A stretch of 55,366 nt of DNA from positions 1 to 55,366 of the forward strand of contig JAIYDN010000114.1 in assembly GCA_027487485.1 (NCBI GenBank), in the 5' to 3' direction. Numbering within the stretch: the stretch's first letter is position 1; every line of letters begins with the position of its first letter. This DNA comes from Planctomycetaceae bacterium (GTDB taxonomy: Bacteria > Planctomycetota > Planctomycetia > Pirellulales > Pirellulaceae). Below are positions 21,002 to 55,366 of the stretch, in pieces. The notes beneath the pieces were generated by a model. The model searched no databases. It was not told where the DNA came from and was given only the letters and a program-made list of their open reading frames with translations. A program made the translations under genes and the position numbers.

Positions 21002-24000
21002 ATGAAGTCTAATCCATTTCGCTCTAACGCCCGCTTACATCAAACTGCAACCAACCGACGACGCAAGAATCTGCGACGTCAATTGCAAATGGAGATCCTT
21101 GAGTCACGGGAGCTGATGGCCGTGACCCCGATACAGAACTACTCTGATATTATTGCGGGAATGTCTTTGGACTCGGTCACGATTGTTACGCACGGCTTTC
21201 AGCCACACGTCGCAGGGTCGCCCGAATCATTAATGCCTTTGGCCTCAGCAATTCGGGACCGTTCAGATGCTGAGAATGGTTTGTCAAAGAGTGCGTGGTT
21301 ATTGGACTACGATGCATACGGGCAAACCGTTCCAGGTATCGATCCACAACAGTCTGTTGTGCCTGGTTCGCGAGAGAATGTTGATTCAATCGTCTTGCTT
21401 TTTGATTGGTTCGATGGATCAAATGAAAAGACTGCAGGGTGGGGAGAGTCAGCAGGCGATTCGCTTTTCAACTTGATGGTTGGACTCAATCTCGTTTCGC
21501 CCGGTAGGGCGACATCGCCAAAAATTCATCTAATCGGTCATAGTTTCGGAACCGCAGTTACCAGCGAAGCAACGGAACGACTACTTGCAAGTGGAATTCC
21601 CGTAGATCAAGTTACCTATCTCGACCCGCATGACTTTAACCAGGAACTTGGAGGGTTCGACACATCTCAAAAACTTTCCGAGTTGGGTAAACCGAAAGGA
21701 TATGGCGTTGTCGCGTGGGCAGGGGTTGGTTTTACGGATGCCTACTACCAAATTCGAAACGTTAATGGGATTGTCATTCCGAATGCCGTTGTCCCCGCCG
21801 GAAGGCCGATCCCAGGTGCATACAACGTGTTCCTCGACTCGGAGCTTCCGAATCAAAGCACTAATCCATACGGTCCCTTTGACTTTGCCGGAGACCACTC
21901 TTATGTATGGGATGGGTATTATTTATCAACGGTGAACGGGATCGCTCCCAATTTGCCACCAACCAGTCCGGTAATTTATTCGACAACAGGCTACTCTTTT
22001 AGCTATGTCGCGGGAAAGAACACCGCCGTTGGCAGTGCGAATGGCCCGTCCGCTCAACGACCCCAGGAAGATGACAGGTACAATTTCAATAGCCCCAATC
22101 AAGACAATCGATATGGCGTTACGAACCTTCCCTTGACGCCCGCTGAAATCGCTCGCTTTGCCGGGATTCCAGAGTGGACGACGCTCGATATTCATAATGG
22201 AGACTTCCGGTATCTGGGTGAGTACCTTGAAACCGTTTCTCAGACGGAGCACCCCGGTTGGAGTTTCCACGGAGGCGGCGGAAGTGGGAATATCTCAAGT
22301 ATTGATGGAGGCGAGGTGTTACAGCTTAATGTCTTCGATGACTGGCGACGTAGCAACCTAAAGTATATTCCTGAACAAGCCTCCTACCTATCGTATTCCC
22401 TACGTCGTACAGATACGAGTACTAACGACGTCTTCGAAGTTCTTATTGGTGATGCTGTTGTCGATTCGATTTCGATGTCCGCTATTGACGCATCACTGTC
22501 TTCTCGTCACGTCTTGATATCGAATTCACTTCGAAAGTCGGTTCAGTCAATTTCATTCCGTATCCGCGACACTGGTGGCTTCTTTAGTGTCGTCGATAGC
22601 GAAGCTCTGATTGATGACGTCCATTTCTCAACTTCGAATCTAACCAATCCAAAAGACCTCTTAGGGATTAGGCTCATCGCTGAATCGGGGCTCGCAGCCA
22701 AGCCCGAGATTACTGGCAAAGCTGCATTTGTCAATTCGTCGGCTACGGGACTACGGCTTTTCTTCGAAGCAAACGAAGATGGATCTAGTTCGCTAATGTA
22801 TCAAATTGGTTTTGGACCTGCAGCCACGACCGGATCTCTAGGGCGGATGATACCTGCTCGCAAATTTGTTGATGGCCGAACTGATTTGGATTTTTTCTTC
22901 GCACCAAGCGCGGAACATCATCCCGACCTGCGTGCTTTAGGACTTGATGAGTCTTCTTCACAAGGATTTCAGGGGAAAATTGCTGTTCAATTTAGTTTTG
23001 CGGGCGAGTTATACGATGTCATTTTGGACTCGACCACCTCCGTGAGTTCAAGTGCTACTGTGCTTGGATCTGCTTCGCGAGAACAAATCGCGGCCGTACA
23101 GCATCGATTAAACTATCTTGGTTTCAGCGATTCTGACGGGGTTCCTCTTTCTATTGATGGAATCGTGGGCCCCAAGACCACCTATGCATTGAAGCACTTC
23201 AAGTCGATTGTTGATCCTGAGGGCACAAGTAGTATCGGTGCAGAAAATGCAACGATTGATATTGAAACAGTTCGTTGGCTCAATGCGGTTGATGCGCCCC
23301 GCTGGAGAAGCCAGTCGGGTGTTCCGCTTTCCGTAGTCAATCGCTTCACAACAAATTGGGTTGGAAACAGTCTTGCTGCTACAGGGATCAATTCAAGTGT
23401 GATCGGCTCCCTAAGCAGTGAATCACCCACAGCTGCTAGCAAGCCCATGGTCGCTTTGCTTTCACTTGCTGGCGCCGCTGCTGCCAATATCGCGATTACC
23501 GATCTCAAGGCGGTTGCGCCTAATACTGCTTCTGCCCGAGCTAGAGCGATCAAGTTCTATACGAATGATGGAAGGACCGTTTCGGGAACTGCGACTACAG
23601 CCGACAATACTCTGACAGCTAGCCAAGTGCGTGTTGAATTTGCTGCACCTCAACGTGCGGTTGTGACCGCCAACGAGCGTAAAGCGTTTGCCAGTGGCAT
23701 TCGTCAATCCGCTTCCCAGCTCAAACCCAGCACGATCTCATCTGCAGGCCAAATGAGACTGCAACAGCCTCTTCCGCTTGTGGGGAACTCGCCTAACGAA
23801 GTGAAGGGATACTCTGAACGCCCCACAGGCGACTCAGGGCTTTCCTTGGCTTCGGCCACGGAAATCGATAGCGTCGTCAACGATCGTGTCATGATGTCGA
23901 TGGCTGACTACGTGGAATCGACAGAAGAACCCAACCAATCCGGCTTCCAGGCATTCTTGGTTAGCAGTGGTAATGCAGATATCAGCGTCACAACCTTCGA

Positions 24001-27000
24001 TCGAGTTAACGATCCCGCTGGACGCTTGGTCTACAATCTACAATTCACTCGCGGTCGCTCCATCCCAAACCAGTTGATCGATCTTGGAAAACAGGTTAGC
24101 GACAAAGGGCTTGCATTGACAGATCCGTTGAACGTGACTGTCAACACGCAACTCTCCGGCAACATCAACGTTGGTATCAACACCAACGATCCGACAGGCC
24201 CTAACTCTTACTTCATCAAGATTAACAACCTAACAGCTGGGATTAGCGGAATCGTTCTTCCAAACGAGATCAAAATTGATGGCAAGTTTTTGGATCTGAA
24301 CGTAACGAGCAATACATTAAGTTTGACCGCGTCGGCTCAGATGTCGAGCGGTGAAATCACGCTTGCGTCTCTTCTGAGCGGCACGTATCGAAATGCGATC
24401 GCGCTCTCTACACCTACAGCTCAGGTTAGTGGCGGATTTACCGTGGGCGGCTCACTAGGTGGCTCCCAGTTTAATGGAACCATTGGTCTATCGGATCCAA
24501 ACATATTCGATAGCACAGGCATCGATGTCACGTTAAGTAGCGGTTTTACCCCAGCGATTGAGCAGTTGCTCAATATGGATGCGAGCTCATTCAAAGATGC
24601 ACTCGGCAAGCTTGGAAATGCGTTCGATAATTTACGCACTTCCGATTTGTTCAATGGCAAAATCGGGGGTACCGACGAGATCAGTACCAGCGATGCGATC
24701 GATTTCAAAGAGGCTTGGGATAAGGCCATCAGTTCTGCGTTCGAGGGTGTTGACCCAGTTCGCGATTTGCAATCGTTACTTACTCGCATCGGAGCCACGA
24801 ACGTAACGCTTGGTAATGCTGGGCACATTACCTTCGATGTGAATATCGAACGGTCGCTTGCCGATCGAACTGTGAAAGTCGGCTTCGATAAGGGGCTTGG
24901 GCCGGTTGGATCGTTCGAATCGTCAACGTTGGCGACTGTGAAGGCCAATGCGGGGATGAAGTTTACGCTTGGCCTCAATCTCAATGGTGCCATTGGAAGC
25001 GGATTTACCCTGAGCCCGGCAACGAACCTGACCTCGCTATACACGGCTGACGGAACTTCACAAGCAGAACCGGTCGACCACGACAACGACCCCAACACAC
25101 CCAAGTTACAACCTTGGAGCTCTCTTGCCGATCGACCGGGTCAAGTCGACTCAATTCGAATTACACTCTCCAATGGTCAGTCATTCGATGTCAATCTCGA
25201 CAACAAAACGACAATAGGCGATACACTTGCGGCAATCAACGGTGCTGCGAGCATAGCCTTGACTCCGAATCGTTACAATGAACTGTATCCAAGCGGTGCT
25301 GCGAATCAGTTTGCCAGACTCAATTCCTCGCGGAAGTCGATCGATCTTGTGGATCGCACTCGCGGCGACGTTGGGCCACTCAAAGTAGAACCTATTGGCA
25401 GCACCAACATCGGCATGCCCGGCATTGGGCTTGGACTTTACGGAACAGCGCCAACACCGGACGACCAAGGTGTGTATACCTTGACAGGTGGCGTATTGCA
25501 CAACGATGGGTTATCGAAACGGGTATATCTGGTTGCTTCAGGATCGAACGTTCCGACTTTATCTGGGAGTGTTGACGTTCAAGCGAACAATATCCAAGCC
25601 TCGCTGAAACTCAACGGGTTGGCAGAGGCAACAGCTAGTAACGGCAACCTTAGGGCTCAGGCGAGCGCAACGGTCAAGTTGGATGGAAGCGACTTAACCG
25701 ATGATGGGAAAATCTTCATCGATGAAATCGTCGATGCGATCACCTTACTTGTTTCCGCCGATGGTGTCGCGGACTACAACGCCAAGCTGCCTCGTGTTAG
25801 CACGGGGCTGACGCTCAACAGTTCCGCAAATGGTGCGATTACTGTATCGGCGACTACTCCATGGAGTTCTTCACCAACGACTGGTGACTTCAGCTTCTCA
25901 TGGAGTGATGTTCGAAACTTTGACTCGCTGGTTGTATCGTCATCGAACTTGAATTTGAAGGAGCTTGTCGACTTCTCTGACATGAACGTAGCCGACATTG
26001 TAGCGGCCCTTAAGAGTGTTCTGAATTATCTGCGAAGCAACGAAAGTAACAGCGCCCTCAACAAGAAATTGCCAATCGTCGGCGATTCTCTCGGCAAACT
26101 CATCTCCGTTGGTGACAAATTCGAGAAGATGATTGCCGAGTATGAAAAGACGCCCGCCGATACGCTCAATGCACTCAAATCGCGGTTGCTCGAAGCCCTC
26201 GGAACCACCAACACCAACGCTGTCTCGTTCACGATCGACAGTTCCGTAGCCAATCGCAAAGCTCTCAAGATCAGTTTTGACTTTGATAGTGTTTACAACG
26301 AACAACTGAACCTAAATCTCGATTTGAAGGCTCTCGGGGTCAACAACCTCGATGGCATCGCTGATGTCAAGGGTAGTGCGAAAGTGCGACTCTATGCAGA
26401 CACCAAGGTCAATGTCGATATCGGTATCGACATGTCCAATCCTGCATCGCCACGCCCATTCGTTTACAACACGTCCAACGCAATCATCGGCCTGAAGGCT
26501 TGGTCGCCTGATATCGATTTCTCTGCCAGTGTTCTCTCCCTCGGGGTCAAGATCGAGAACGGCTTTCTAGCAATAGACAGCGACGGAATTGCCGAACCCG
26601 TGTTCGATGTGAATGACAAAGTCACCTTCACTCTTGGATTGGCCGATACGGATCCGAACAATGACGGTCGGATCTATATCGATACGTTGAGTGCCACGAA
26701 CATTCGAGAGAGTCGTTCTGCGATTGATCTTCGTGTCAATTTGCCGATGTTCACCACACACAACAATGCTTCCATTGGCAATCTGGAATTGCGTCGACAA
26801 GTTGCTGCCTCATCGACTTCCTTGACCTCGTTCGATTGGGGTACCAACCCTAGTGTCGTTTCAACGCCTGACTTCAATGCTCTTGTGAGCAGTCTTGATC
26901 TTACGACCACCTTTGATGGTTTCTCTGGTGGTATGTCCGATTTCATGACGATCTTCGATACCGCGATCAAGAACCAAGCCTTGATTGCTAAGATCCCAGT

Positions 27001-30000
27001 GATCGGCGACAAGTTGAAAGATGCGGTTCGCGTTGTGGGTGACTTTAAGGAGAAGATCGTTGACAACTTGACCTTCTTCGGTGGCAAGTCACCCATCATC
27101 GTCCAGCAAAAGATCTATGAAGCTCTTGGTCCCGGTGGACTCAACTGGCTGGTCGACAATTCCGATGCGAATTCCACTGTTGATGTTAACGATGTGGTCC
27201 TAGCCCAGAACACCTCCAGCGATGTGCGCTATTCAGTTCGTCTCAAACAGTCCCTCGCTCGCGTGGTCGTTCCAGTCGACTTTGATCTGGGGCTTCCCAT
27301 CCTGGGACTAGACGTTAACGGACAAGTCCAGCTCGATGTCGGCTTTGATTGGGATTTGACATTCGGCCTCGATAAAAGAGGCGGATTCTATTTGGGAACA
27401 GGAGTCTCGGATGAATTGAAACTAGCTTTCGAAGCTAGCACCCCGGGACTTTCGGCAACAGCCGAGCTCGGTTTCTTGACAGCCACGGCTACCGACGGAG
27501 CCAAGGTGAATGGCCCGAACAGCCCAACCGAATACACGCTAGTTAAGGGAGCAATACACGTCGATCTGCGAGACCCGGGTGTCGGATCGGCCAACGATGG
27601 AAAACTGTTCCTCACCGAGATCGTTTCCGCCCCATTGCCGCAAGTGGTTGCCGCTTACTTCCCAGCTACCGACGCGCAAGGTAATGCAACCAACAATGCG
27701 CAAGTACGACTTCACTTGATCGGCAGCATCAATGGTAACGAAGATTTCCCACAAATTCATACCGACCTTACCGTTGATTGGAGCTTTGCGAACGCCAGCA
27801 CATCAACTGGTTCGGGTTCGTTTGGGACCGTTCCTGTGGTCGCTTTCCGCAACGTACAGATCGACGTGGGCCAAGTGCTCACCAGCTTTGCAAAACCGAT
27901 TCTAGAGCGTGTCAACGCAACGCTCGCTCCTGTCCAACCAGTGCTGGCGATTCTTCAAACGGCGTTACCGATCCTATCCCAATTGTCGGGTAGACCCTAC
28001 ACAATTCTAGACCTGGCAGAACAGTTCGGTCCGCTCTTTGGCGGATCGGTAGGCAAGGAAACCAAGAACTTCATCAAGGCAGTAGCTGATTTGAAGAACT
28101 TGATCGATACGGTCAATGCGGTGAGTTCGACTGGCCTCGTGAACCTCGGGGACTTTGTACTCACGGGAGGTTCCTCCTCCTCAACCGTCGACCCACGTAA
28201 ACAGCCTCTTAAGGATGTGAACCTGGCAACAGTTCCTGGTTCGCAAAATGCAATTCCCGTTAGCGACTCAAAAGCTCAGGAGTTTATGTCTAAGGCGTCT
28301 GCCGTTCCAGCTTCCAAGGATGCCAATGGCACTGGAGCGGGATTCAGCTTCCCGATTTTGAAGAACCCAATGGGGATCTTGCAAATTCTGACCGGCCAAG
28401 GAAATGTCGATCTGTTCAAGTACGACATGCCTGAATTGAAAGTTTGGGCTCCCATCAAAGAAATTCCAATACCAATCCTTCCGCCGGTCTTGATGGGCTT
28501 CTTCGGTGGAGGAATCGGCGCGTCGGCGGACTTCAATTTCGGATTTGACACCAGTGGTTTCAAGTCAGGCAATCCTTTCAACGGCTTCTATATTGAAGAC
28601 CGAATCGGCGGGATTGCTTCTGGCAAAGACGTTCGGGAAGCAGTGCTTTTCGGCCGTATCGAAGTCGGTGCACAAGTTGGCGGTGATTGGGGGCCGGCAA
28701 GTATCAAGGCTGGTGCCGCTGGCGGAATTGAAGCGACCGTGGGGCTTAATTTGAATGATCCGAACAATGATGGTCGAGTCCATCTCAACGAATTGCGCGA
28801 AAATCTACGAAGAGGTATTGAATGGGTGTTCGATGTCCAAGGCTCGGTGGATGCCTACTTGAGAGCCTTTATCGATATCAGCGTTAACGCTTTTGGCAAA
28901 CGCGTCACTCTTTACGAAGCAGAAATGGAACTCGCTCGTATCCAGTTGATCGATTTCTCGATTCCGAAACGTGGTGCGATAAGCGAAGAACCCTTAGGAT
29001 CGCAATCCAATGGTGTTCTAACGCTTGCTCTGAACGCCAACGAAGACGACAACTTTAGCATCGCACAAGAATCTTCTGGAACCATCGTAGTCACGGCACG
29101 TGGTCGCACCCAATCATTTGCTTCTATCACCAAGATCGTTGGCAACGCAGGTAAGGGGAACGACAACATCGCTTTCGATGCCTCGGTAACAAGAGAAGTG
29201 GAAATTGACGGCGGCGATGGCGATGACCGAGTAACCTACTCGGGTACTGGCAAAGCAACTTTGCGAGGCGGCGCAGGCAACGATCGACTTACCAGCTCCT
29301 CAGGCGCTGACTTGATTGAAGGAGGCGACGGAGATGACATTGTCAACGCTGGTGCTGGGATCGATACAATCAGAGGTGGATCAGGCAACGATGATATCCT
29401 CGGTGGCGCGGGCGATGACACAATCTATGGCGATGCTGGCAACGACACTGTTGATGGAGAGCTTGGAAACGACACGATCTACGGCAACGAAGGAAACGAC
29501 AAACTACGCGGTGGTCTTGATAACGACGTCATTAATGCAGGCATTGGAGACGATAGTGTCTACGGCGATGACGGCAGCGATCAACTTTACGGCGAATCTG
29601 GCGACGACCGTATCGACGGAGGACTCGGTAACGACTTTATCTTCGGCGGGGATGGAAACGACTATCTCGACGGTGGGAAGAACAACGATACTGTCTACGG
29701 CGGTATCGGCAATGACAACCTCTATGGCAATGGTGGTTCCGACAGCTTGTATGGCGAGGATGGTAATGACCTGATTGTTGCCGGTGTTTCGAAAACGGGT
29801 GGCGATGAGGGGGCAGTTCACTTCCTGTATGGCGGATCAGGCGACGATGAGATCTACGGTGATGCGGGACAGGACGTCGTCTATGCCGGAGCAGGTAACG
29901 ATCGCATTGAGTCACTTGCCGGGAACGATGATGTTCGCGGTGAGGATGGTGACGACTTCATTATCGCTGGTATAGGAAGCGATTTGATCATCGGTGGCTG

Positions 30001-33000
30001 GGGACGCGATACGATCTACGCAGGTTTATCGACCATTGGCGGTGGCCGGGCAACCGAAACGAATCTTGTCTTTGGTGATTTGGAGAGTATCGATCGAGAC
30101 TCTCATGTTCTCGCTCTTTCCGGCACTTTTAATCCGCAATCGCACGCTGACACCATCTACGGCGATATCGGGGACGACGGTATCTACGCTTCGTATGGTG
30201 ACGATGTTATCTACGGTCTCGCTGGAAGCGACATCATCGAAGGTGGCTGGCAATCCGACACGATCTATGCAGCCGCGAACGAAAATGGCGTCAATGGATC
30301 GACAGATCGCAACACGATCTATGGTGATTCCAGCATTCCGGGTGCGAATCAAAATCCGCCGACTGGCGCGCATGCTGATCGTGTTTACGGAGACCAGGGG
30401 GACGATATCGTCTACGCTGGCCAGAGTGCCGACGTCGTCTTGACCCTTTCTGGGAACGACGTTGTTTACGGTGGTTCCGGAGATGACTTTATCAACACGG
30501 ATATTGGCGATGACCTCATCTATGGCGAAGATGGCGAAGACTCGATTATTGCGGGTGTCGAGACCGGCACAGGTTCCGACAAAGACATCGTCTATGCAGG
30601 AGCGGGCAACGACATTGTTTACAGCTATCGTGACGAAGACTTCTTGGTCGGTGGCACTGGGGATGATGAGCTCGTAGGCGGAATTGGTCGAGACATCATT
30701 TGGGGTGGCAATCAAGCGATCGAAGTGTCCGCCTTTAACCGTGATGCGCTGAATGAATTCGACTATCCAACCAACTTCCCAGGTCAAGAATGGTCTGCGA
30801 TTGCTTCGCAGGCCGATACTCGTGTCGTACCGCAAGTTCTAGTCGGTCAATCGGTTGATGGCACCTTCGACGACGGCAATGATATTCTGCGAGGCGGAGA
30901 CGAGAGCGATTGGCTATTCGGTGGTGGCGGTAACGACCTGATTGAAGCGGGTACGGGGGTCGACTACGCTGACGGTGGAGCAGGCAGCGATCGCATCGAA
31001 GGAGGCGACGGCAATGACGTCCTTCGCGGAGGTGGCAACGATGACGTCCTCTTAGGCGGCTTCGGAATCGATCAACTCTTTGGTGATGCAGGTGCCGACC
31101 GTTTGTTCGCGGATGGCAACAATACAAGCGTTTCATCGCTCGCAGGCCAACGTTTGTTTGGTGGTGATGGAATCGACTACCTTTATGGCTTCTCGTACAG
31201 TTCCAACCTAAGTGAAACAACGCAAGTCGGAGAGGAGTTTCACGGTGGAGCGGGTGGCGACTGGATGTATGGAAGTCTGCGTCGAGATACGTTCCATGGC
31301 GGTAGCGGAAACGACACCATTCAAGGGGACGCCCTCGCGAGTGAATTCTATGCCGAGAGTGGCACGCGTTCTGTCGATGGTGGTGATGACACGATTTACG
31401 GTGGAACCGGTGAAGATCGACTCTACGGCGGTGGCGGAAGCGATACGATTTGGGGCGGGGCTGACAGCGATTGGCTCGAAGGGCAAAACGGAACCGACCG
31501 ACTTTACGGCGGAACCGGTATCGACATGATCTTGCTCGATACGGCAACGAACTACACGGCCAATCCCGTTGGACAATTCGAAGTCTTTGACGGTCACTTC
31601 GGGAACAATGTCGCCGGGGATACTGCCGATGACAATGCCACCGATATTTTGCTTATCGAAGGAACCACGTCTGACGATACAATCTCCATCGGTCAGACCA
31701 GCTATTCGATTCCTAATAGCAATCGCACGGGAACTCGATTGACGGTTGTGCATAACGGTCTCACCATTATCGGCGAGTGGCGGTCGTTTAACGATCCTGC
31801 TGATCTGAATGGGCGCCCTCTTGTCGAGCAGATCCGTGTCTCGGGTTTAACTGGCAATGACAACCTCTCGTTTATTGCAACACCGAGTGCGGGGATGAAT
31901 CCGCTGGATGTATCCGACCTTACCGAGCGCAGCGATGACTGGGTCGGTGTTCTGGATGGTGGACCAGGCAACGATACTTTACGGGGCTCTGGGGCACGCG
32001 ATCGCGTCGACGGTGGGTCAGGCAGTGACACCATCTATGGCTATGCTGGTAACGATCAACTTTGGGGCGACGGTGGACCTGGCATCGGAAACTCAGGCGA
32101 CCACGATACCATCTTCGGTGGCCAAGGTGACGACGATATCCTTGGCGGGCAAGGGACCAACACCCTATACGCTTGGAGCCAATTCCCTGGCTTGCCGAAT
32201 ACCATTCCATTTGGAGTATTCGTTGGCGACGACGGACTACTCTATCCCGACAATGGTGATGCAAACAATGACGGAAAGCTCGACAGCGATCCTCTGAAAC
32301 CTGCTCGCGTCCTTGAAGACACCGGCCTCAATCGCATGCTCGGTGGTCCTAAGAATGACGCGCTCTATGGTGGTACCGGTCTGGACTTTATGTATGGATA
32401 TGGCTCGACCACTAGCACAGCCGACGTATTGTATGATCGAACAGGCAAGACATTTGACGCACGCGGTGTGTTGGCCGGTGAAGAGTGGAAAGCCTACGCA
32501 AAATCGACTGACAAAGTCTGGTACTACGGAGCCACCAATCGCGATGATGTGATCAATGTCGATTACGTTACCGAACCTGGCGTGCTCACGGGACGGCACT
32601 TGATCACCCGATTGACCAGCAATAACGGCAATTTCACATTCGACGCTCAAGTCCAACTCGACTTCAGTCAATGGTCACCCAACGACTCTTACTATGGGCT
32701 TGCATTAACCAGCACTACCGCCATTTCCGGCGATGGACGATTGGGCAGCGATGCTACCCTATCGATCAGCGTCGATGGCGGTGAGATTGTACCTGTTACG
32801 GTACTCGCATCTAATACCTTCACGAACAGCACGATTCGTGATCTTGTCTCCGATTTCAATGCATCGATCAATGCATCGCCTCTAGCTGGTAAGCTTGTTG
32901 CACGCGTTAATGGCGACCGACTGAGCTTCACTCGGACGCAATCCGTCGATGATCCCGGTGCATCCATCGTCGTCACCTACGCAAGTGCAGCCGCCATTGA

Positions 33001-36000
33001 TGAACTCGGCTTTGCCGCTGGCCAGACGGCTGCGCGTAGCTACGTGGGTTCCAATGGACTATCCAGTCTGTTGCCACCCGAAGGGGATTTCCAGGCCATC
33101 ATTATCGATGCATTGGACGGCAATGATCAAGTGAACGTCGGCCCAACGGTTCTCAAGAGCGTTTGGACCGATGGTGGTCGTGGTGATGACATCGTCAAGT
33201 ACCAAGCAGGAAAGCCAATTCTGATCGACGTAGCCGACCAACAATTCGGCGGCGTTCGCAATGACAACCCAGTGAATGCCTACGATTTTGGCACACTCAG
33301 CTCGACGAAGTTAGTGACCGGTTTGACCATCGACAACCCGATCGACGTCGACTGGTTCAAGTTCACGACGCCGGGAACGGCCTACGGAGCCAATGACGTG
33401 CTAAGCATTACGACCATCTCGCCGAACGATCGGCTCAAGTTCGGTATTTACGCAATGTCCGGATCGGTTGCGACACTGGTTCCCGGAAAGGAATTCAATT
33501 CGACCAATGGCGGTGCGCCCGAGGTTTCTTTGAGCGGGCTAACTCTCGGCACGGAGTATCGGATCAAGATCGAAACAGATCGAATTCCGACCGTTTACGA
33601 AATGAGCTTTGCAATCGGTGCTACTAGCGGCACTGTGACGACCCCTGTTTCGTTAGATAATCTCTTGGTAGATGGCACTGTGCGAAAGTTCCGGGAGATG
33701 GGTTCGATTGTGGCCCAGCCTCTTAAGCCGAGTACCGACTTCTACTACTCCTTCACATTGCAGGCCGACGCTCGGGCCGAAGATAGCATTCTGCTCAACG
33801 CCTACGAAGCCGCTTCGCCAGTGACATTCACCTTGCTCGATGCAAACAACCTTGCGATCGACGCATCCAGTTCGCTCGGTCCGGATAGTCCAGCTCGAGT
33901 CAGCCTTCAAGGCCTTAAAGCCAGCGTTACTTACAAGCTAAAGGTCAGCAGTCCATCGGCGACTCGCTACGAGCTGGTTCCACAGATTGTAGAACAGTTA
34001 TCCTCAACTGTTCCACCTCCTGCTCTACCCCTTACTTCCTCTCCCAAATATGGCACTCTAGCCATCGATTTCAACGCTGGAACGGAAATGTTCCTCGGTA
34101 ATGCATTGACCGATCCACTCAGCAGTACCTATCGCGTTCGCAAGGACGTCCTGATAGGCGGTCAGGGCAATGACATTCTTCAAGGCGGTTCGTTTGAAGA
34201 TTGGGTCTTCGGCGGAGCGGGCAACGACGTTTTGTCGGGCGGTTTTGATCGTGGTGCAGGGGACTTGCTATGGGGTGAAAACGGGGACGACATCTATCAA
34301 GTTGTCACCGATGCATTGCCTTTGATCAAAGCCGCTCAACGTCGAGTCGGCGAAGCTGGTAACGAAACCTTTATCCCAACCTATACCGATCGTTTCGATG
34401 GTGGTGCCGGCGATGATCAGGTTCTTTACCAAGGTGGAGACTTGGACGCTAACGGTCGCGTTGTCCCTGACAATGTCGCCATTCGTTGGAACAGCATCCT
34501 GCATCGCTACGAAGTCACTAGCCAGGTTTGGAACTTCCAAAAGCAAGCTTGGGAAGTGGACGCCCTGGATTCTTCCGCCACAGTCATCGGAAACAAGCAG
34601 GTCAGTACATCGGACGTGCCCAATAGCCTGTCCAACGGAGTCCTTGCGAGCGACTTTACGTTTAGCGTGTCTGTCAATGGCGGAGCCGTGGTTCCCGTCA
34701 CGATTTCGGCCGCATCCAGTGCGCAGTTCACGCGGTTCGAACAATTTGTGTATCTGGTAAACGAAGCTCTGCAAGCCAAGGGGCTCAAGGGCCAGATCTA
34801 CGCTACGAACAGCGGAAACGCCTTGGCGTTGAGTACGGTAGGGCGTGGCGAGAATGTCTCTTTCATCATCAGTAATAGCAACACGGCCATTTTGCCTAAT
34901 GGTACCTTTAATGGTAGCCGTGACGGTCTTTCCCCCAAACAGCATTACTCCTTCTACACAGTCTTTGACACCGAAGGTACAACCGAAACGGTAATCGATA
35001 CCCGTCGAGGCGATGACGAGGTTCATGCCGATCCCGAATACCTCATCCGTGGCAGCGAATGGGGCATTGATCCAGAGGATCGTTCGCAACGTGCCAAGCC
35101 GGATTTGATCATTCGTGGCGGAGATGGCAACGACCGATTATTCGGTGGGGCTGGCAATGATCGCATTGAAGGTGGTGCCGGAGCCGACGTTATTCGAGGC
35201 GGTGGCGGCAACGATTCCATCGATGGTGGAGCTGGGGACGATTGGATCGCCGGTGGTCCATCGCAAGTGATGCCGGACCGTTATGAATTCATCGCGGGGG
35301 CCGCTAACAATGTTCCTTCAGCGGCCGCACTGTTAGGCGAAGATTTCTCAGTCCTTCTCAAGCCGAACGATGTGGAGGTCAAGAATCTCAACTTCAGTGC
35401 GGGCGATCGGGAAGATTGGTTTATCTTACGAACACCGCAAGCGATTCAATCCTACGGCAGCGTCAAAGCCGCTCAACTGCTCAAGGATTCGATCAGTATT
35501 AGTTTCAAGGCGCCCGAAGCAACCGTTGGCCCAACCAACCCATCGGCTCTCTACACCGCACTACAAAACAACGGCTACGTTCACAATCAACCATTCGGCT
35601 TTAATGGTGGTCAGCTTGTGAAGCTGTATGCGGCGAAAGACAACGATCCGGGGGACGGACTAGCCATTGTCGCGGTTGATGAGTTTGCGGGCTTACCGGA
35701 ATATTATCTCATCAAAGTAGTGAATCCGTTAGCCGTGGGACTCCTTGCGAACGCTGACGTTCCAGCCGCCGGTCCTTACGGGCTACGATTCCAATCCGCT
35801 ATCTTGGGCAAGACCATCGCCCTCTCGGCAGGGAAAGATGCTGCGGCTCATTTGGAGACGAACAACGTCGATGATCGCCCGGTTACAATTGCGCTGGGTG
35901 ATATTAACGGCGACGGTTACGGCGACTTCGTCGGTGCCACCGGTTCGATCACGTCAGGCTCAGAGACAAAACACTACGCTCGCATCTATTTCGGAGCACC

Positions 36001-42000: not shown

Positions 42001-45000
42001 AGACAAGTTGTACTTCACCGCCAAAGGAACCAACGATATCGGGGCAGAACTTTGGACGCTGAACGCCACCGAAGACAAGGCTCAGCTAGTCGGAAATATC
42101 AACCCCAATCGAAATCAAGGATCAGCTCCTGGCCAGTTAACGGTTGTTGGAGGATCTACGGTTTCTACCAGTGACGACTACTTGTATTTGGTCGCGAACA
42201 ATGGTTCTTTTGGCACTGAACTGTGGCGAACGGATGGATTGAACATTGACGGTGTCGTAAGCCGAACTCAATTGGTATCGGACATCTCCACGGGAAGTGC
42301 TGGTTCCGATCCTGCTTCCATGGTAGAAGTTGGAGGCAAAGTCTATTTCCTAGCAAACGACAGCAGCGGCCTGGCGCTCTGGCGAAGCGATATCGAAGTA
42401 CCAGCGACCGAAACGGCATCTTCCAGAACCGTTCGTGTCGACAAGACTCTTGGTGCAGAAATGAAGGTCAGCATTCTTCGCGATGAGGGAGATGGACGAA
42501 TCACGGCAGAAGATATCAACTTGAGCAGCACTTCCAATCCGGTTGCATATTCGGCTAGAACGGCTCGAATTGATTCTATTCATGGCTTAATCGACGATCC
42601 GTCGTTCAATACGCAAATTCAAAACGCAGTCAAGGACGCGATTCTTGCCGGCAAGAATCGCATCACGGCTCGGTTAGAACTGCCTGATAGAATCAATGGC
42701 GACAAGCAGAACAACATCCGATTTGATGTTGATACTGATCTCGCCGAAGGAGCGTCTCGATTCTCCGTTCCGAGCCCTGCTGACGCTGTTAATCAGATAT
42801 CCGGGCAAAGCACGACCATTGACCGAACAACCCGACTTGTCGTTACACCGAACAACCGAAGCAGCGTTGTGTTTGATTTGGTCGATAGCCGCGGCGGTGT
42901 GATCGCCACGAAACTAACCAATACCGACATTCGAAATCTGGACGCGGGAACGTACTATGTACGAGCCTACCGGCCCGATGCACCCACTACGGTAGGGTCC
43001 GAACGTAACTTTACTTTCTTGGTTAGTGCACCTGCGGCGGGGCAGACGCGAGCGACCTTCTCCGATCCGGACCGAGATACGATCCATGGTGGTGATGGCA
43101 ACGATTTCATCATCGGCAACGGCGATATCGATGAGCTCTTTGGTGGTGCTGGCAAAGACACATTTACCAGCGATACAACCACGACAGCTCTGAACGGTCC
43201 TGAGATCCGTGATTGGAACTTCGGCGCCACCGGCGAATCGGTCTTCCAAGTCTCGGCAACGGAATCGATTTCAGCTTTCAAGACAGCACAGCTTGATCGC
43301 ATCGTCAATATCCCAGACAAGGGGCTGCGCTTGGTTCTAGCCGATGCGTTGGGAATCACAGTCTTCGACCGCAACGGTCTACCACAATTGGCGCGTGAAA
43401 TCCGAGCCAGCGAGCTCGCTTCACTTACCCATCTGGACGCCAGCAACCGAGGCATCATCGATTTGACGGGCCTCGAGAACGCCATCAACTTGCGTTCGCT
43501 CAACTTGTCGAATAATAAGATCGGCAGCCTCGCCGCGTTGACTCCCAAGACCTCCACACGCCCTGAAGATGCTGGCTCACCGATCGGACTTGCCAAGCTG
43601 GAGTATTTGGCTTTCGATAACAATACCAATGAGAGCTTCTATGGTAGCGGAGTGATGGACTATGGGCCTGTCGCATATTATCGGCTCAATGAAACGAGCG
43701 GATCGATCATCCGAGACAGCTCCGGTCGAAACAACCACGGTACCCTCGTGGGCAATGCGATTCAAGGCGTCCCAGGCGCAGACCCGAACGACAAAGCTAT
43801 CGATTTCAACGGTACCGGAAGTGTGCAATTGAATGTGCCGCAGATTAACACGGCAGCCGGCGGAAAGAATACGGTTTCGTTCTGGTGGAAGACGGACGGG
43901 AATGGCAACCAAGATATGCCCTTCGCCTTCAATCAAGGACTCTATCTATATCAATACAATCCTGCTGACTTCGGTTTCGTTAGTGGCGAAGGCGCTGGCC
44001 ACGCGGCTCGCGTCGTAAACATCAGCCAATACTTTGGTCAGTGGATGCAAGTGACGGCAGTCTTTGAAAATGGGAACTTGGATGGCTGCGAACTCTACAT
44101 TAACGGAGCAAAGCAGACTCTTGCGAGAGTCGGTGCGCAAAGTCCGAGTTCATCGCAAACGGCAATTACGAATCCCACAATCTCAAGTTGGTTTACGGGT
44201 GGCGACACTTTGGTCACCGGAGAAATCGATGATCTAGCGATCTACAATCGCGCGTTGACGGAATCCGAGATCACTAACCTTGCGACCTCACGACGCGAAC
44301 TAAGTGGACTCGCTCAGCTTCAAAACCTACGATCGTTATCGATGGACAACACCACCGTCGGTTCGCTTCAATCGCTAAGCCGATTAAGCAATTTGGAACG
44401 ATTGAGTGTTGACCGGCTCGACAAAGAGAAGGAACGTGGGCAGATTCAAACTTGGGATTTTTCGAATGATGAAAATCTTTCCGTATGGTCTACCAACGCA
44501 CCCGGTGGAGTCAGGCGCGTCGCTATTCCCAATACAACAGAACTATTTTTAGGCCGAGATGCTAATTACGGATTCGGCAACGAAACCGTTACTTTAGATT
44601 TAGGAGATCGCGAACCTGGGCAGTACAGCATCGGATATGACCTTTATCTCATCAACTCTTGGGATGGCAATCATCCTACAGTAGGTGATCGTTGGCAGCT
44701 TTGGTATCGAGGGCAAAGTGGAACACTTCTCGATGCATCGTTTTCCCAGTTTGCTCAGATTGGACAATCCTATCCACTCAATTTTGGATCAGCTAACTTG
44801 CCGGCCGGTACTGGGCGAGCGGCATTCTATTCCAGCTATGCTTATGGGATTTCTGTCTATCAGCTCAAGCATGTCATCAACCATACGGGAGGGAGTCTTA
44901 AGCTAGACTTCAATGGGCTCCCCAGCGAAACTATCGATAATGAAAGCTGGGGGCTGGACAATGTTGTATTCCAGTCAGTTGCTCCCTCAGCGGCAATGGA

Positions 45001-48000
45001 CATTTCCTCGTTGGCATCGCTTTCGCTAACGACGCTTAGCCTTCAGAATCAGAGCATTGTCGATGCTCGTTCTTTGGCAATGCACGACAACCTGCAGCAA
45101 CTGAATTTGCGGGGTAACGACATCTCGGACGTCGCCGTATTGTCGGGGATCCGACTGGCCGATGACATCGGTCCTGGTTTTGCGACGACCGAAATTGTGG
45201 GTTCGGTTTATCAAGAGTTCAAGAAGACTGGTAGCAACTGGGACACGACTCCAGCAACGCCGGAAACGACCCCTTGGCGAACTAACATCAGTGCCAATGA
45301 GTCTGCCTTCCACGGCGACTATCGCGTAGCTCCTGCAGCAACCGTTGCGACGGCCAAGGCAATTTGGACGTTCAATGAACTGGTTCCTGATGAATACGAT
45401 GTTTACGTCTCTTGGACCGCTAGCCAAGCCAACGCCAGCAACGCTACCTATTCGATCAGCGTTACCAACCATGCACCTGCCACAACGATTGGAAACGTCG
45501 TTGTTAATCAGAAGTTCGCCGCCGATAACACCAGCAACTCCGTCAAGTGGCACAAGCTCGGTCGATACCAAGTCGAAGCCTCCAGCCCAACGGCCAACCT
45601 AGGGCAGTTCATCCTTGAACTGACCAACGGCAACACCGACGGGATCGTCATCGCGGATGGAGTCAAGTTGGTACGCAAGACCGAACCGCTCAACAAACTG
45701 CAATCGCTCGATCTGCGTGGCAACCGTTTCAACAATGATGGCTATGACATCCACTCAAGTGTCATGCAATCAAACACCATCAACAACTCCGCTACCAGCT
45801 ATGTCCTGATGGACCCAGCACCGGCTACATTGTTGTTCCCGCAAGAGCCTATGTATAGTTTGGTCCAGTCCGACGTTAGCCGTACGATCGATCTAGGGTT
45901 TGGAATCGATGGTATTGTCATGACTACCGAAACGGCGAATTCGGTGAATTTGGAACTTCAAGACTCCGCGGTTCAGGCCGATGGCAAGATCGTTGCTGCA
46001 GGATACCGTGACGTAGGTGGCTTTCGAGAGATAATCGTTGCTCGTTACCATGTGAATGGAATGCTCGACAACAGCTTTGGCGAAGGTGGTATCGTTAGTC
46101 TCAATATCACAAACAGCCATGACGAAGCTTTTGCCGTGGATATCCAGCCAAACGGGAAGATTGTAATAGCGGGACGGATTGTCACTGCACAGCAGAGTCG
46201 CATCTTTACCGCACGATTGACGAAGGAAGGACAACTGGATTCAACCTATGGTGCGGGACTGAATACACCAGACAATGTTATCGCGGTTGGAGTGGCTGGT
46301 GTGCGTGACAACTACTTTCCACACGATGCTCAGACAGCTTATGACATTACCATCGCGCCCGATGGACGCATCGTGACGGTCGGTGGCGTCGCTAGTCCAG
46401 TACCAGGGAACGCAAGCAATTATTCATCAATCACTGTGGACGACGAAGATGGAAATCCAGTCATCGCCTTCGGGACAAATGGAATCCTAACGATTGCATC
46501 TCCCTCGACTTCGACCAATGATACGCTTCGAGGGGCACCCTTAGTCGGCGTAGCCGTAGACCCAACCAACAATTCAATCATCGCTATATCGAACATCGTT
46601 CTCGCAGATGGTAGTGAGCATTCGTTCGATCCCTACTTAGTCCGAGTTGACGCAACGGGTGGAATCCTATCATCATCGGTGGTGGTTACACCGATTTACA
46701 ACGAATTCGTAGGCAAAATAACAGTCTTACCGGGCGGAAAAATCTCGACTAATGGCGTTGTCGCATTTGCCGTTCCTGGGCAACCAGGGGAATGGGATTC
46801 GGCTGTGTACCAATTCAACCCAGATTTTACCTACGATGCCAACTTCGGAAGCACAACCGGAAGCTTGCAGTTTGCTACGGTGAACGGATCAGCAAGCCCA
46901 ACTCACCCTGGAATGGCATTGCTGGTGAACGATGGATACAACCAGTTTGCTGGTCAAGTACTTCGTCAGCCCGATGGAAAGTTGGTGACGGTTGGTTTTT
47001 GGGAAGTCAATGGTCAGAATCTCGCCCGAATCGTTCGATTCAATGGTGATGGAACACTTGATCTCTCGTTTGGCGGAAGTGGAACAGGCTTCAATATCAC
47101 GTCCTTCCCAAGCTCGGCCATTCCATCTTCCTTAATCGCCTTACCGGACGGAACAATGGTTCTAGCGGGCGAGTCGCTTAGAAACGGCGCCGGACACTTT
47201 TCACTTGCTCACTACACTGCCGACGGACAAATCATCCCAACAGTTGGTGAATACACTGTCAGCAATGATCATTCATCACAAATCGCGACCACCCTTTCAG
47301 GCGATCAATTGACGATCACGCCGCAGTTTGCGACTCAAAGTTTGATCTACGATGAGAATTTTGAATCTTTGACGCTCGGTAGCCTCGGTGGTCAAGCAGG
47401 GTGGGTCAACACAGTACCGAACACGACAGTTACCGTAGCCGATCTCAACATCGGGGGACGATCAAGTCGAGGAATAGACCAGTCAGTGCCTGAGTTTCAA
47501 GGTGCTATTCGTTCTATTCCAAATCTCGAACAATACGCTCGTGTCCGTTTTCAATTCGAAGCATTCGCTTCAAACTCTAACTCGCTTTCTCGTACGTCGT
47601 ATATAGGTTTCTTGCCGACACAGATCGATCCACTTCCAGTGAACAGTGGATTTCCAAAAATTGGTTGGTATACGATCACGAATGCCGCGACTCCAAAATG
47701 GGTCTTCACGATTGCCTCTGGCTCCGACGATTTCGTATTGGAAACACCTAGTGGATTCAATTCATGGATCACGATGGAGATTGTGGCTGATCGACTTGCC
47801 AACCAAGTCTACGGCAGATATAAGCTTGCTGACGTCTGGCAAGAAACACCGCGCTTTGCTATTAGCGAATCCGACATGGCTGCTATCAACGGAATAGCGA
47901 TCAAGAATGTTAATGTACCAGGTAGCTACTATGACAATTTAAAAGTCTTCGGCGAGCGATGGTACTCCGGCCCGGCTCGCGTGACCGTGACTTCAACAGA

Positions 48001-51000
48001 GATTGTTAATGGCGTTGCAACGGGGCGAACGAACGAACGGCCAATTGATGTTGTAATTGATAACGCAATCGGCGGAAGTGATTTTGTAAGAGTAAACCCA
48101 ACGGACCCAACTCTTTCGCAAACTTTTAGTCCTACAGTTGCGCGCAGCGCCAACGGCACTTCCGTGGTGGCTTGGGCGAGCTTGAATTCCCTTAGTGCAA
48201 CAGACACCTGGGAAATCTTCGCGATTCGATATGATGCGCAGGGCAACCCGCTGCCTAGGCCATCCAATGCTATCGTAGGCTCTGGACTCTATGACTTCAG
48301 AGTCAACACGGTGACGACGAACACACAAATAAGCCCCTCGGTCGCAATGAACGACAGCGGACAGTTCGTGATCGCCTGGCAAGATCAGCAAGTTGGAAAC
48401 AACGCCAACTTGGCAGTTCGTCTGCAACGTTTCGACTCAAGCGGCAATCCAGTTGATGGTGAGATTCTTGTGGACGCGACCCCTGGGGCGAACGGTCCTG
48501 CTGTCGCAATCGATAATGCCGGAAAAGTGACAATAGTGTGGGATTCCAAGTACGCCGCAGAAGTCGACGTTGATGTGGTCATGAATCAAATTGCATGGGG
48601 GCAAACCAACTTAGCCAATGCAAGCCGTATTAGAGTCAATGACTTTGTGGCTGCGGGCGGAGTCAGGCACCTTCCGCAAATCGGAATGGATTTGATGTCA
48701 GGCGATTTCACGATCGTTTGGTACAGCTACAACCAAATATCCGCGTCAAGCCAATGGGATATTTTTGGAAAACGCTATGACAGTACCGGAACCGCTTTAT
48801 CTAGGCCAATCGGCGTTGCACCAGGCTTCGGAGATTTTGAGTTCCAGATAAATACCACGCAGACGACGGGTGCTCAAATTACTCCACGGATCGCTCGCGA
48901 TGGCTCGACTTTTGTTGTAACTTGGTATGACGAGGCAAACAGTGCAAACGTTTATGCAAGACGCTACAACAACTCAGGTGTATCACTCGACAGCGCCGAG
49001 TTCAAAGTAAATAGTTCTGCTTCCGGTCTTCAAGTGAATCCATCTGTATCAATGACCAGCGGTGGCGGATATACAGTGCTTTGGGAAGATCGTGTGACCA
49101 ATAGTTCTTCTTCCACTTGGAAACTGGTTTCGCAAGAATTCGATCGAGATAACAACCGAGTTGGCGGAGAGCGAATTGTTGCTCCATCCCTGTCCGGAAA
49201 TCAATACCAGTCGGCGATTGCTAGCGATCGACTCGGCAGCACAACGATTGTTTGGTCGGATCCCGCGAACCCTCCGTATCCAATTTTTGCTCAGACGATG
49301 TTGGTTGCTAGAAGCCAGGGCATAATTTCTGGCACTGCTTACTTAGATTCGAATGCAAGTGGCTCGTTCGATTCAGGTGACGCGTCATTGCCAGGGCGTA
49401 TCATCGAGCTTGTAGCAAATAATTCCATAATCCAAACGACGACAACCGATCCGAACGGTGACTATGCGTTTATCGGCGTAAACTATGGTTCCTATTCAAT
49501 TCGGGAAAGAATGCCATCCAATTCGATCGTACAAGCTTCTAGGACGGTTACCGTTGGAATTGCAAAGCCAATTCAAACAAGTATCGATCTTTCTAGCCGA
49601 CGGGTACTGACCTTAGGTGATGATCTCCAGATCACGGAGGGAACACTTCGGACGTTTACTGTTTCGACAAATGCATTTAGTGCTGGCGCCACCTACTCCT
49701 GGACTGTCAACGGCGTTGCTGCAGGCACAGGGAACTCGATTACGCGAAACTTTTCTAATGGAGGCATATTGCCAACTAAGAACACCGTCTCAGTGACGGT
49801 TGTTGGCACACCAATAGGCGAAACTTCGCAGGGGACCTATACCGATTCGGTAGATATCTTCGTCCGCAACATAAATCCGAACCTAACCGTTTCCAAATCA
49901 GGTGCGGAAGTGGAGGGTGGTGCAATCACGATTGTCGCCGCGGGTGTCGACGTTACCGCAGATTCAGGTGGTTTGAAGTACTTCTTTAGCACCAGCGAGG
50001 CGGGGCGGAATGGGTCGACCTATGCATCTGCACAGACGACGAATAGCATGCAATTCGTTTTCGACGCGGAAGGCTCAAAGACCGTTTTTGTCCGCGTTTT
50101 CGATGCCGATGGCGGCTTTGCCGACGATCAGATTTCGTTGACGATCGCGAATGCAGCCCCAGTGGTATCGATTTTGGGAGCTCCGTACTCCATTGTTGCG
50201 GGACAATCGACGATCAATCTAAATGCTACTGTCGTAGATCCAAATCCAACCGACATCATCTCCAGTTACGTTTGGCAACTGGAGCGGGCAACAAATGACT
50301 GGGTAACGATAAGCAGCTCCAACACCACAGCGAATCAAACGATCAACTACAGTACTCTTGTGGATGCTGGAATCGCATTGGGATCGCAGCTTTACAAGCT
50401 CAGACTAAAAGCCACCGATTTCCAGAATGCCGAAGGTGTGTCTGCAACGACGGACCTTACGATCGTCAATAACAACCCTGTTGCCAACGCAGGTGGTCCA
50501 TATTCTATTGTCGAGGGGCAATCGCTAACGCTCAACGCAACTAGTTCGACGGATGCCGATGGTCATGCCCTGCAATACACTTGGGACTTTGACAGCAACG
50601 GCAATGGGCTTTTCGATGACGCGAACGCCAGCCGTGTCGGCTCGAACCTGGTCCTTTCTTGGCCTGATCTGGTCGCGTTGGGACTCAGCAACGGACCGCT
50701 CGTTCGCAATGTTCGCTTGACAGCCTCCGATAGCTTTGGAGGTTCCAACACCTCCATGGTTGCCATCAACATTGCAAATGCAAATCCGACGGCATCGTTT
50801 ATTGTTCCACTGTCTGCGGACGAAAACACCAACACGATCATCTCGTTCGCAGATGTGGTGGATGCAGGTGATGCATTGTCGACGCTGCGCTACAGTCTCG
50901 ACCTGAACAATGATGGCGACTTCACCGACCCAGGTGAATCAATCGGCGTGATCGCATCGTCTTTTACCGTCATATTCCCAGATAATGGATCGCGAACGAT

Positions 51001-54000
51001 TCGAGGTCGGGTTACTGACGGTGATGGTGGCTTTACTGACTATCTTGCTACGCTCAATGTGGCAAACGTCGCACCCAAGGGTACGTTGCTGATTGGTGCT
51101 ACCGCCGTCAATGAAGGGACCAGCTTTACCTTTGGCTTGACGAACGTGATTGATGCCGCTGGAGATCTTGCGACTCTGGCGTATTCGTTCGATTTGGATG
51201 GTGACGGTGTTTATGAAGTGACTAACTCGGCGTCTGCCACTCAGAACAAGATCCTGTTCGAAAACGGTGATTTCTTGCTACGTGTGAAAGTCACCGACAA
51301 GGACGAGTCTAGTGCTGAATACTCGCAAGTACTGCGAATCAATAATGTACAGCCGACGGTAAGCAGCCTATCAACCTCGACGCCGACCATCGCTCAAGGG
51401 GGTGTGTCAACGTTGACGGGTTCGTTTACCGATCCGGGAGCGGACGCGGACAAATCGAAGTGGACCGGTGTTGCCTTTATTCGCCAAGCAGGCAATCTGG
51501 TAGATACAATCCCACTTTCGATCGACCCGAATACGAAAACATTCACGTTGAGCCAAGCTTTGAATCGCTCCGGTTTGTTCACTGTAACAACTGCGATAAC
51601 TGACGGCGAAAGCGTGCCTGTTGAAAGCTCCTCTGTTGCGATCACTGTTCAGAACGTGGCTGCGACGATCGATGATCAAACGATCAGCGGTGCGGTGGCA
51701 GGACGACTCGTCACTCGACGATTCAGCTTCGTTGATCCGGGGAACGATACATGGACCTATTCGGTCAACTATGGAAGCGATTCGATGGTATCGAATATCT
51801 CGAATGCCTCTGTTAACGCGTCGGTCCTAGGAAAGGCGATCGATATCCCAATCCGCTACTCAACGCCCGGAACCAGAACCTTGACGTTGACGATCAACGA
51901 TGGGGGGCAATCCGTAAGCAAGTCATTCGCGGTTGTGGTTGCAGTCAACCAAGCACCGACTGTGGTTAGCCAGATTCCTAATCTGCTGGTATTGCCAACG
52001 ACTACCGATCGACCGTTTTATGCGGATTTGCGACAAGTTTTTGCTGACGCTGATCATCCTGGCATTTACCGATGGATCATGTCTGTTCCGAGTGTTGGTG
52101 CATCAGCAGGTGGAATAGAGGATGCGCAGACATTCGAAGTCTCTTATCTTGGTGTGACGAGCACGTTCGAATTTGACAGCAACGGTTCCGTCAATGCTGG
52201 AAATCGCCCGATTCCATTCACGGCTGGCCAGACTTCAGTACAGATTCAGTCGGCGATCATAACTGCTCTGAATTCTGTTTCCAACGCAGGGCTACAGCTT
52301 GAGGCCAAGCCAGGAATCGGCTCTTCGATTCTTCTTGGGAATGTCGCGAACCACTCCATAACTCACGGTACGTCCAATCTTACGATTACATCTTCGGCGA
52401 CGATTGAGAGCGAGCTCAGTTTCTCGTTCACCAATTCAAACCTTCAGTTGGTTACGCCAAACATTGACGCGAACGGAATGTTGCACTTGGACTTAGCGGA
52501 CAATCCAAATGGAGCGTCAGTGATCACGATTCGCGCTACCGATCCGTTAAACAGTTTTGGTGAGCTCTCGTTCACCGTATCCGTCGCGTCCACGCCGATA
52601 CTGAGCCTACGAGTCAATGGATTCAGCACCACCAATACGGGAGCCAGGGTCGCTTTCGATGCAGCCCCAGAGCTATCGACTATTAATCTCTTTGATGGGG
52701 TCGATGCAAGTGTTGATCTGCCCGATGTTACTTTGGTCGGTGCTATTACAGGCGTAGTACCAGGATCGATCGTTTGGAATGCAAACATTAATACCTTTGA
52801 GTTCATCAAGACGGGTGGACCGTTGGTTCCCGATACATACACACTTACACTCCACAGCCGAGCAGACGGATGGCGTCTTCCAAACGGTAGCCTGCTTGAT
52901 GGCGACAGCGACGGTACCGCGGGTGGAAACTACGTGCAGACTTTCCAAGTGGCAAACTCGACTTCTCGTCTCGTTTCCATTCCGGACTTTGCCCGTGGAG
53001 CGACAAGCACGGCGGGGCAGAATGTCAACTTGTCATTCGATAACGGTAATCCCGGAGTTCCAGTGACCATTAGCGATGGTGCCGGGGTATTGGCCATTGA
53101 TTTCGATGTTGCCTACAACCCATCCATGCTGAACTTCTCTAGTTCGTTCTTTGGAGTTTTGCCTGCAGGCTGGACTACCACCGTGAATCTCATTTCGTCG
53201 GGACGCATGCGGTTGTCCTTGTCTGGTACGACACCACTGCCTGCTGGACCGCAAGTCGTGACTCGTTTGTTGGCAAGCGTTCCCGCGAATACTCCGTATG
53301 GTGCATCCGACTTAGTTCGCATCGAGAACCTGAACGTCTTCACTCAGACGGGTGGCAATGTACCGGTTCCGTCGATTGCTGATGCTGGTTTGCATAAAGC
53401 AATTTTCGTCGGTGATACTAATGGTGATGGTCTGTACACGGCTCAAGATGCCGGTTGGGTCGCGGGTGTTGTCGTTGGTTCTTTCACTGGCTTCGATGCT
53501 TATAGTTGGACCGATCCGGTGATCGTGGCGAATGTCAACCAGAATGCTGGATTAGATGGCCTCGATTCTTCGTGGATCGCTAGGAAAGGACTGTCACCAA
53601 GTTTGCAGCCAGAGATCCCGAATTTACCAGCAGGTGGCTTGACCATCCCCGCAGGAATTGATCCAACCATTGCGGCTGATTCGCTTGTACCAGGCGCACG
53701 CGGATCGACTGTCAATGTGCCGATTCGAATCACCGACAATGCAGCGGGCTTATTTGGTGTCGATGTCTTTATCGATTACAACACCAACATCTTGGATCTG
53801 GTTGATGGTTTGAATGCGGCCGGTGTGAATACCGCCGGAATGTTTGCGACCGAGGGTGGATGGACCATTGATTCGTTTGTGGATGACTCCAACGGTAAGT
53901 TGCGAATTGCGATGTATCGCGCTTCGGCATCCACTTCAGGGGCAGGCATCATCGCTAACGTTCCATTTGCGATCAAGTCAACTGCACCCGTCGGAGTGAC

Positions 54001-55366: not shown

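Follow-up and report, generated by a model that had tools for sequence, protein, structure and literature searches.

The 55,366-nucleotide contig JAIYDN010000114.1 of a Planctomycetaceae bacterium (assembly GCA_027487485.1), analysed here over its whole length and called the window below, carries a single open reading frame that fills 62% of it (34,365 of 55,366 bases) and runs off its right-hand end. Is this frame truly one gene, and what could a protein of more than 1 MDa do for the cell? We propose, with confidence only somewhat above even, that it encodes an exported surface scaffold with a lipase-like head, which docks dockerin-tailed sister exoproteins through its cohesins and is controlled by an extracytoplasmic function (ECF) sigma factor and a kinase.

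The frame is free of stop codons. From the ATG at 21002 it comprises 11,455 codons, corresponding to a partial protein of 1.205 MDa (isoelectric point 4.46) with one cysteine; from an alternative ATG at 20939 to base 55366, the scan of the + strand counts 11,476 codons and 0 stops. The remaining five frames across the same DNA exhibit 325-655 stops each. The initial annotation of the window, made from the sequence alone, had described an uninterrupted frame of this length, mass and share of the window, and the five positions that it gave for a consistent phase are all congruent with 21002 modulo 3. At 34.4 kb, and still open, the frame exceeds the 20 kb that we take for a giant planctomycetal gene, and DUF1501 and PSCyt genes nearby are planctomycete neighbours. 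Such length was also called rare, which is correct for bacteria in general but not for planctomycetes, a group known for giant genes: genes above 5 kb occur in 29 of 29 Planctomycetes genomes examined, the largest gene of Fuerstia marisgermanicae NH11 has 36,239 bp, and genes above 30 kb were seen only in NH11 and G. maris (PMC5177795). These genes have long been listed mostly by length (Reva and Tummler 2008, cited in PMC5177795). The features of the frame, all on the + strand, are as follows.

21002..55366, +, giant open reading frame, 3' end cut by the contig end (alternative ATG upstream at 20939)
21074..21130, +, Arg-rich N-terminus with LESRELMA, planctomycete extracellular signal, PF07595-like (20.7 bits, cut-off 25.5)
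21176..22066, +, lipase-like alpha/beta-hydrolase with Ser181, Asp208 and His299 (numbered from ATG 21002)
23078..23200, +, PG_binding_1 (27.1 bits when scanned by itself, against a cut-off of 23; 20.9 bits within the whole slice)
24116..29128 (approximate), +, conserved region of about 1,670 residues, no Pfam or NCBIfam match at E 0.01
29162..35308 (approximate), +, RTX calcium-binding repeats in two blocks with spacers (PF00353, 374.7 bits, 24 stretches)
35816..39538 (approximate), +, FG-GAP and FG-GAP-like repeats
39716..41008 (approximate), +, delta-60 repeats, first block (TIGR02608, 294.5 bits for both blocks together)
41036..42448 (approximate), +, ELWxxDGT repeats (TIGR04534, 92.9 bits, cut-off 65)
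43421..45676, +, leucine-rich repeats, LamG and Golvesin_C
45866..47248 (approximate), +, delta-60 repeats, second block (TIGR02608)
49337..50593, +, SdrD_B-like and PKD domains
53045..53353, +, cohesin 1 (25.4 bits in the genome search; 25.9 scanned alone, cut-off 24.1)
53693..54025, +, cohesin 2 (44.1 bits in the genome search; 44.6 scanned alone)
54614..54835, +, YDG domain, part of a shared 3' cassette
54866..55366, +, beta domain and the first 13 residues of a dockerin, cut by the contig end

This order of domains recurs in distant relatives. Residues are numbered in these comparisons from the ATG at 20939, and other frames are measured from stop to stop unless stated. G375, a one-contig genome that belongs to the same class yet to a different order and family, encodes a frame of 10,631 aa bounded by a stop at either end. 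One collinear chain of BLASTP blocks, at 23-36% identity, runs from the hydrolase to the first cohesin and covers 8,943 of the 11,476 residues of the window frame. In another one-contig genome (G032), from a different genus of the source organism's family, a frame of 10,282 aa has 6,274 collinear residues. Since collinear frames exist in these finished genomes, the giant frame is not a chimera. In the protein database, restricted to lengths of about 5,500-17,500 aa, the N-terminal part is found in 18 entries and the core in 4, the core search having scored 467 candidates only. The collinear chains extend over 5,978 (P0008), 5,568 (P0003) and 5,050 residues (P0010), over 4,881 in a protein labelled Accumulibacter on a 5.19 Mb contig (P0009), and over 4,563 in one labelled Pirellula sp. 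(P0019), with 47% identity in the main block. Within the source genome, the giant of contig C41 is a paralogue whose matching blocks, between residues 1,059 and 11,322, follow the same order. G030 contains a partial homologue (2,807 residues in one chain); the frame of G250, with only 218 collinear residues, was not counted as a full one. That the combination of modules is unusual, as thought in the initial annotation, is not supported: the same order is found in another planctomycete genus, in another order, and under the Accumulibacter label. That the domains keep their order across some 9,000 residues in different planctomycete orders speaks for selection acting on the whole chain, and its function can therefore be studied by comparison. 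The proteins form an apparently undescribed family; we found no description of a collinear hydrolase-headed family in the literature searched, which misses most subscription journals.

At the N-terminus, an Arg-rich stretch is followed by a sequence of the LExRxLLA type (RRQLQMEILESRELMA), in which Met replaces one Leu. The corresponding motif of Tuwongella immobilis is RRLxxExLExRxLLA (PMC8567305). The G032 homologue reaches 29.2 bits for PF07595, and no NCBIfam match (LEPR-XLL) was obtained for the N-terminus of the window protein. Several further giants of about 5,000 residues in the source genome, G005 and G032 (L118-L120, L116-L117, L078, L086, L104) exhibit "GP(Q/R)LIG" right after the signal motif. 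The adjoining domain exhibits an alpha/beta-hydrolase fold with conserved Ser, Asp and His residues, the Foldseek TM-scores being modest (at most about 0.48 among the matches listed). The domain may act on esters or lipids. The hydrolase family is patchy, with representatives in 5 of 392 other planctomycete genomes (frames of 660, 2,257, 10,631, 1,283 and 8,640 aa) and, in a separate draw with a longer query, in 3 of 59 relatives.

The region of about 1,670 residues is conserved in giants of several groups. A model of its second part is rich in strands, at low confidence. As the model of the 960-residue core is poor (pLDDT 63.2, pTM 0.49) and its best PDB match weak (E 0.008, TM about 0.1), we claim no fold for it. 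There are 38 GGxGxDxx motifs over the whole chain. The N-terminal hydrolase, RTX, FG-GAP, delta-60 and leucine-rich modules named in the initial annotation are all present, and ELWxxDGT, LamG, Golvesin_C, SdrD_B, PKD and YDG domains exceed their curated cut-offs as well. The giants are nearly cysteine-free, with 0-7 cysteines per frame in eleven giants above 4,000 aa of the source genome, 6 in the G032 homologue and 1 in that of G375; the exception is G030, with 22. In nine other genes of the window the cysteine share is 0.7-2.7%.

The two cohesins are confirmed by score. They were absent from the scans of whole slices and appear, over the cut-off, when scanned alone (as does PG_binding_1), and also in the genome search. 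A PDB sequence search with cohesin 2 returned nothing beyond a weak, unrelated match (E 0.23). The segment between the two cohesins, considered as a candidate dockerin, yielded no Pfam dockerin when scanned alone. In the entire genome, cohesin matches are confined to three frames (those of the window, C41 and C33) with two each, five of the six being over the cut-off. The same genome contains 42 matches to the dockerin family PF00404, in 36 frames. Cohesins over the cut-off and dockerins encoded in the same genome are what a scaffold calls for, and the restriction of cohesins to three frames, against dockerins in 36, suggests a wiring scheme for the cell surface, concrete enough to be tested. 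In Planctomycetota, Dockerin_1 is proportionally more frequent in huge proteins (PMC11573180).

The dockerin of the window protein itself was only partly as announced, since 13 of its residues lie inside the window and the rest beyond the edge. The contig end falls inside a 3' cassette common to over a dozen other exoprotein frames, which encodes the YDG domain, the beta domain and a type I dockerin, followed by a variable Gly-rich tail. The last 2 kb of the window has 21 further matches elsewhere in the genome, and 17 of these lie no more than four bases from a contig end; twelve contig ends, the window's included, enter the cassette from the left, and its right part lies at eight contig starts or ends (E 1e-15; nine with a weak match on C12). 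Both parts occur together in three close copies (a 4,471-aa ORF on C49, a 1,863-aa ORF on C102 and a C102 frame with an open 5' end) and in a more distant one on C33. This shared cassette shows why the present draft assembly breaks inside such genes. The window is the entire contig C67 of a 7.49 Mb genome in 114 contigs, so that the frame is not extendable within it and the edge is an assembly break. Six contigs (C82, C75, C36, C48, C49 and C63) start inside the cassette, overlap the window end and continue its frame. A stop, for which an extension to the right had been advised, is found in all six at 190-279 residues from their own start, i.e. 170-209 codons past the window end, which gives a total of about 11,625-11,664 aa counted from 21002. 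Among eight contig starts compared, only C82 overlaps the window end exactly (79 of 79 nucleotides); it is the best right-hand partner, but not a proven one. On C92, C31 and C12 the right part starts only past the window end and lies in 173-, 159- and 131-residue frames, respectively. At the left end of the window, a second exoprotein on the - strand (3-1685, starting at 1685, with LEPRRVLS near its N-terminus) is cut after 561 residues, so that at either end the contig breaks off within an exoprotein-type frame.

Fourteen cassette copies of the source genome differ from each other at 11-26% of fourfold sites, depending on segment and copy set, while 64-70% of these sites differ between them and five copies from three same-genus genomes. 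The copies are accordingly either recent or homogenised by conversion. Some giants stand in tandem (L009 1-1000, L015 1-8000, L007, L008), the 3' cassette of one ending shortly before the start of the next frame, an arrangement that favours gene conversion and unequal crossing over. The giants sharing the genome were found through cassette and dockerin matches, and those having neither may be missing. The largest is the C41 giant (at least 11,829 aa), whose N-terminus resembles an alpha/beta-hydrolase with every score below the cut-off. Others with an open end have at least 10,679 (C50), 7,928 (C49, with a 119-nucleotide exact overlap with C52), 4,710 (C59) and 4,289 aa (C63), and further giants have 5,339 and 5,172 (C50), 5,218 (C8), 4,802 (C15) and 4,472 aa (C49). 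The C3 giant has 5,840 aa, a length taken from the dockerin search because the retrieved stretch cuts the frame. The 10,679-aa giant of C50 shares the cassette and matches the window protein elsewhere mainly in RTX repeats.

The tails behind the cassette exhibit a motif, hD..[FY]..h, in their last 45 residues: it occurs in 16 of the 25 closed tails examined among cassette-type homologues (e.g. L040-L070) versus 7 of 295 background ORFs, an enrichment whose significance is optimistic, the expression having been drawn after viewing the tails. The sample consists of 32 loci minus two own and L068, i.e. 29, from which one duplicate and three open ends were dropped. Five of nine own tails have the motif, and all nine a [DN][DN] variant. 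It possibly serves sorting or partner binding. We rejected it as a general partner of the N-terminal signal, because in G005 and G032 it occurs in just 3 of the 18 closed ORFs that bear the signal.

Three genes lie upstream of the giant gene:

15874..19365, -, Ser/Thr kinase (STK) with WD40 repeats, in divergent orientation to the giant gene
19384..19944, -, ECF sigma factor, likewise divergent, on the upstream side of the giant frame
20174..20845, +, small HTH_3 (helix-turn-helix) protein directly upstream of the giant gene, between it and the divergent ECF and kinase genes

We examined 12 giant frames of at least 4,200 codons, 11 of which have their 5' end inside the contig. An STK gene lies within 2 kb upstream of six of the 11 (window, C41, C50, C49, C63 and C8), accompanied in four of the six by an ECF gene, that of C50 being weak. 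The chance of such adjacency is about 1e-8 with 69 kinase matches in 7.49 Mb, under a uniform model that ignores gene clustering and the choice of 2 kb.

What is new here is the collinear hydrolase-headed family, the confinement of cohesins to three frames, the homogenised cassette, and the kinase genes beside six of 11 giants. On the scaffold reading, the protein would use its planctomycete-specific signal at the N-terminus for export and be displayed at the surface of the cell as a megadalton, calcium-binding and nearly cysteine-free fibre, presumably stiffened by calcium. The lipase-like hydrolase would sit at the N-terminal end, the RTX rolls, beta-propellers, leucine-rich repeats, LamG and PKD domains of the middle would provide a long spacer and binding array, and the two cohesins and the dockerin would occupy the C-terminal end. 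The cohesins most likely dock the dockerin-tailed sisters, whose C-terminal cassette is shared and homogenised, into a matrix at the surface, and the adjacent ECF sigma factor and kinase probably control the giant gene. A bolder version appears possible but doubtful: two lipase-headed cohesin scaffolds (window and C41) would dock around a dozen giants through the gene-converted cassette into a self-assembling megadalton matrix, with separate ECF-sigma/Ser-Thr-kinase switches beside individual giants, in an old scaffold family reaching beyond the phylum.

Several observations weigh against the scaffold reading. The PF07595 match of the window protein is below the curated cut-off, and its own copy of the dockerin is cut off by the contig end. 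To our knowledge, cohesin-dockerin pairing cannot be read from sequence. Nine of 14 other same-genus genomes with the cassette, many of them incomplete, exhibit no detectable cohesin, so that docking to an own cohesin cannot be the only use of the cassette; among same-genus genomes without it, one of 12 exhibits a cohesin. The kinase adjacency fails in five of the 11 giants (C15, both C50 tandem giants, C3 and the first C49 giant, the last having only 985 bases upstream, which hold the end of another giant). Within 2 kb upstream of the signal-bearing ORFs of G005 and G032 an STK gene is present in only 2 of 22 cases (L077, L103), with 2 more having one within 2 kb downstream (L081, L096), and the adjacency is therefore mostly local to the source genome. 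Finally, two T. immobilis genes of more than 30 and 40 kb were not detected as expressed (PMC8567305).

The same two undetected genes would suit an explanation in which the frame gives rise to several separate proteins, through internal starts or by processing, instead of a single chain. We give this little credence, because one uninterrupted frame is kept in homologues at 22-36% identity from two one-contig genomes. That the genes were fused by misassembled repeats is scarcely credible: the contig does end in a multi-copy repeat and the assembly has 114 contigs, but the same domain order recurs in P0003, P0008 and others and in two genomes of one contig each, and a misjoin would rarely preserve the frame.

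Adhesins of the LapA/SiiE type are giants with calcium-binding RTX repeats on a megadalton, beta-rich chain. The window protein could be one of these, secreted by a type I system and retained at the surface for attachment only, with the cohesins and dockerin as further Ig-like modules. Its 24 RTX stretches, repetitive beta modules and acidic isoelectric point (4.46) agree with this, and five giant genes of NH11 were read as suggesting adhesion and carbohydrate binding (PMC5177795). We nevertheless consider it rather unlikely. The N-terminus has the planctomycete signal motif, and a conserved hydrolase triad is unnecessary for adhesion. No HlyD-type adaptor was recognised among the ten neighbouring window proteins scanned, and in the genome the 18 HlyD matches are weak (best 57.9 against 208.65 bits), in a search that did not include ABC exporters; as no HlyD homologue reaches the cut-off, the classical type I route becomes less likely. 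Giant genes have been proposed to act in predation in other bacteria. A surface-tethered filament bringing the lipase and a peptidoglycan-binding module to the envelopes of other cells would account for the triad-bearing hydrolase followed by PG_binding_1, but no immunity or delivery gene was recognised among the same ten proteins, and with the patchy presence of the family (5 of 392 genomes) such a contact or predation device seems decidedly improbable.

How does the scaffold compare with known systems? With LapA/SiiE adhesins the window protein has in common the RTX repeats and the megadalton beta-rich chain; it differs by another N-terminal signal, the hydrolase head and the lack of a HlyD homologue over the cut-off in the genome. 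The database proteins P0001, P0003, P0008, P0009 (an Accumulibacter-labelled PKD domain protein) and P0010 are collinear with it over 4,827-5,978 of 11,476 residues but shorter (6,697-7,988 aa), and their names give no function. In T. immobilis, the signal motif is present in 8 of the 10 longest proteins, which reach 10,566 aa and 1.1 MDa, and 20 of its 52 motif proteins were detected (PMC8567305). The giants of T. immobilis and NH11 resemble the window protein in phylum and size class, those of T. immobilis also in the N-terminal motif, and were read as surface proteins (PMC5177795, PMC8567305); unlike it, they are not described, in the parts of these reports available to us, as a collinear hydrolase-headed family or as having cohesins. 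The "planctosome", a hypothetical cohesin/dockerin complex of Nemodlikiaceae (PMC6461901), is likewise planctomycetal, combines cohesin and dockerin on surface proteins, and was not found linked to cellulose degradation in the part of that report available. Its model has a 2,210-aa anchor with a signal peptide, and peptidase clients (PMC6461901). In the genome analysed here, by contrast, the cohesins belong to giants of megadalton size with a lipase-like head, and other giants would serve as clients.
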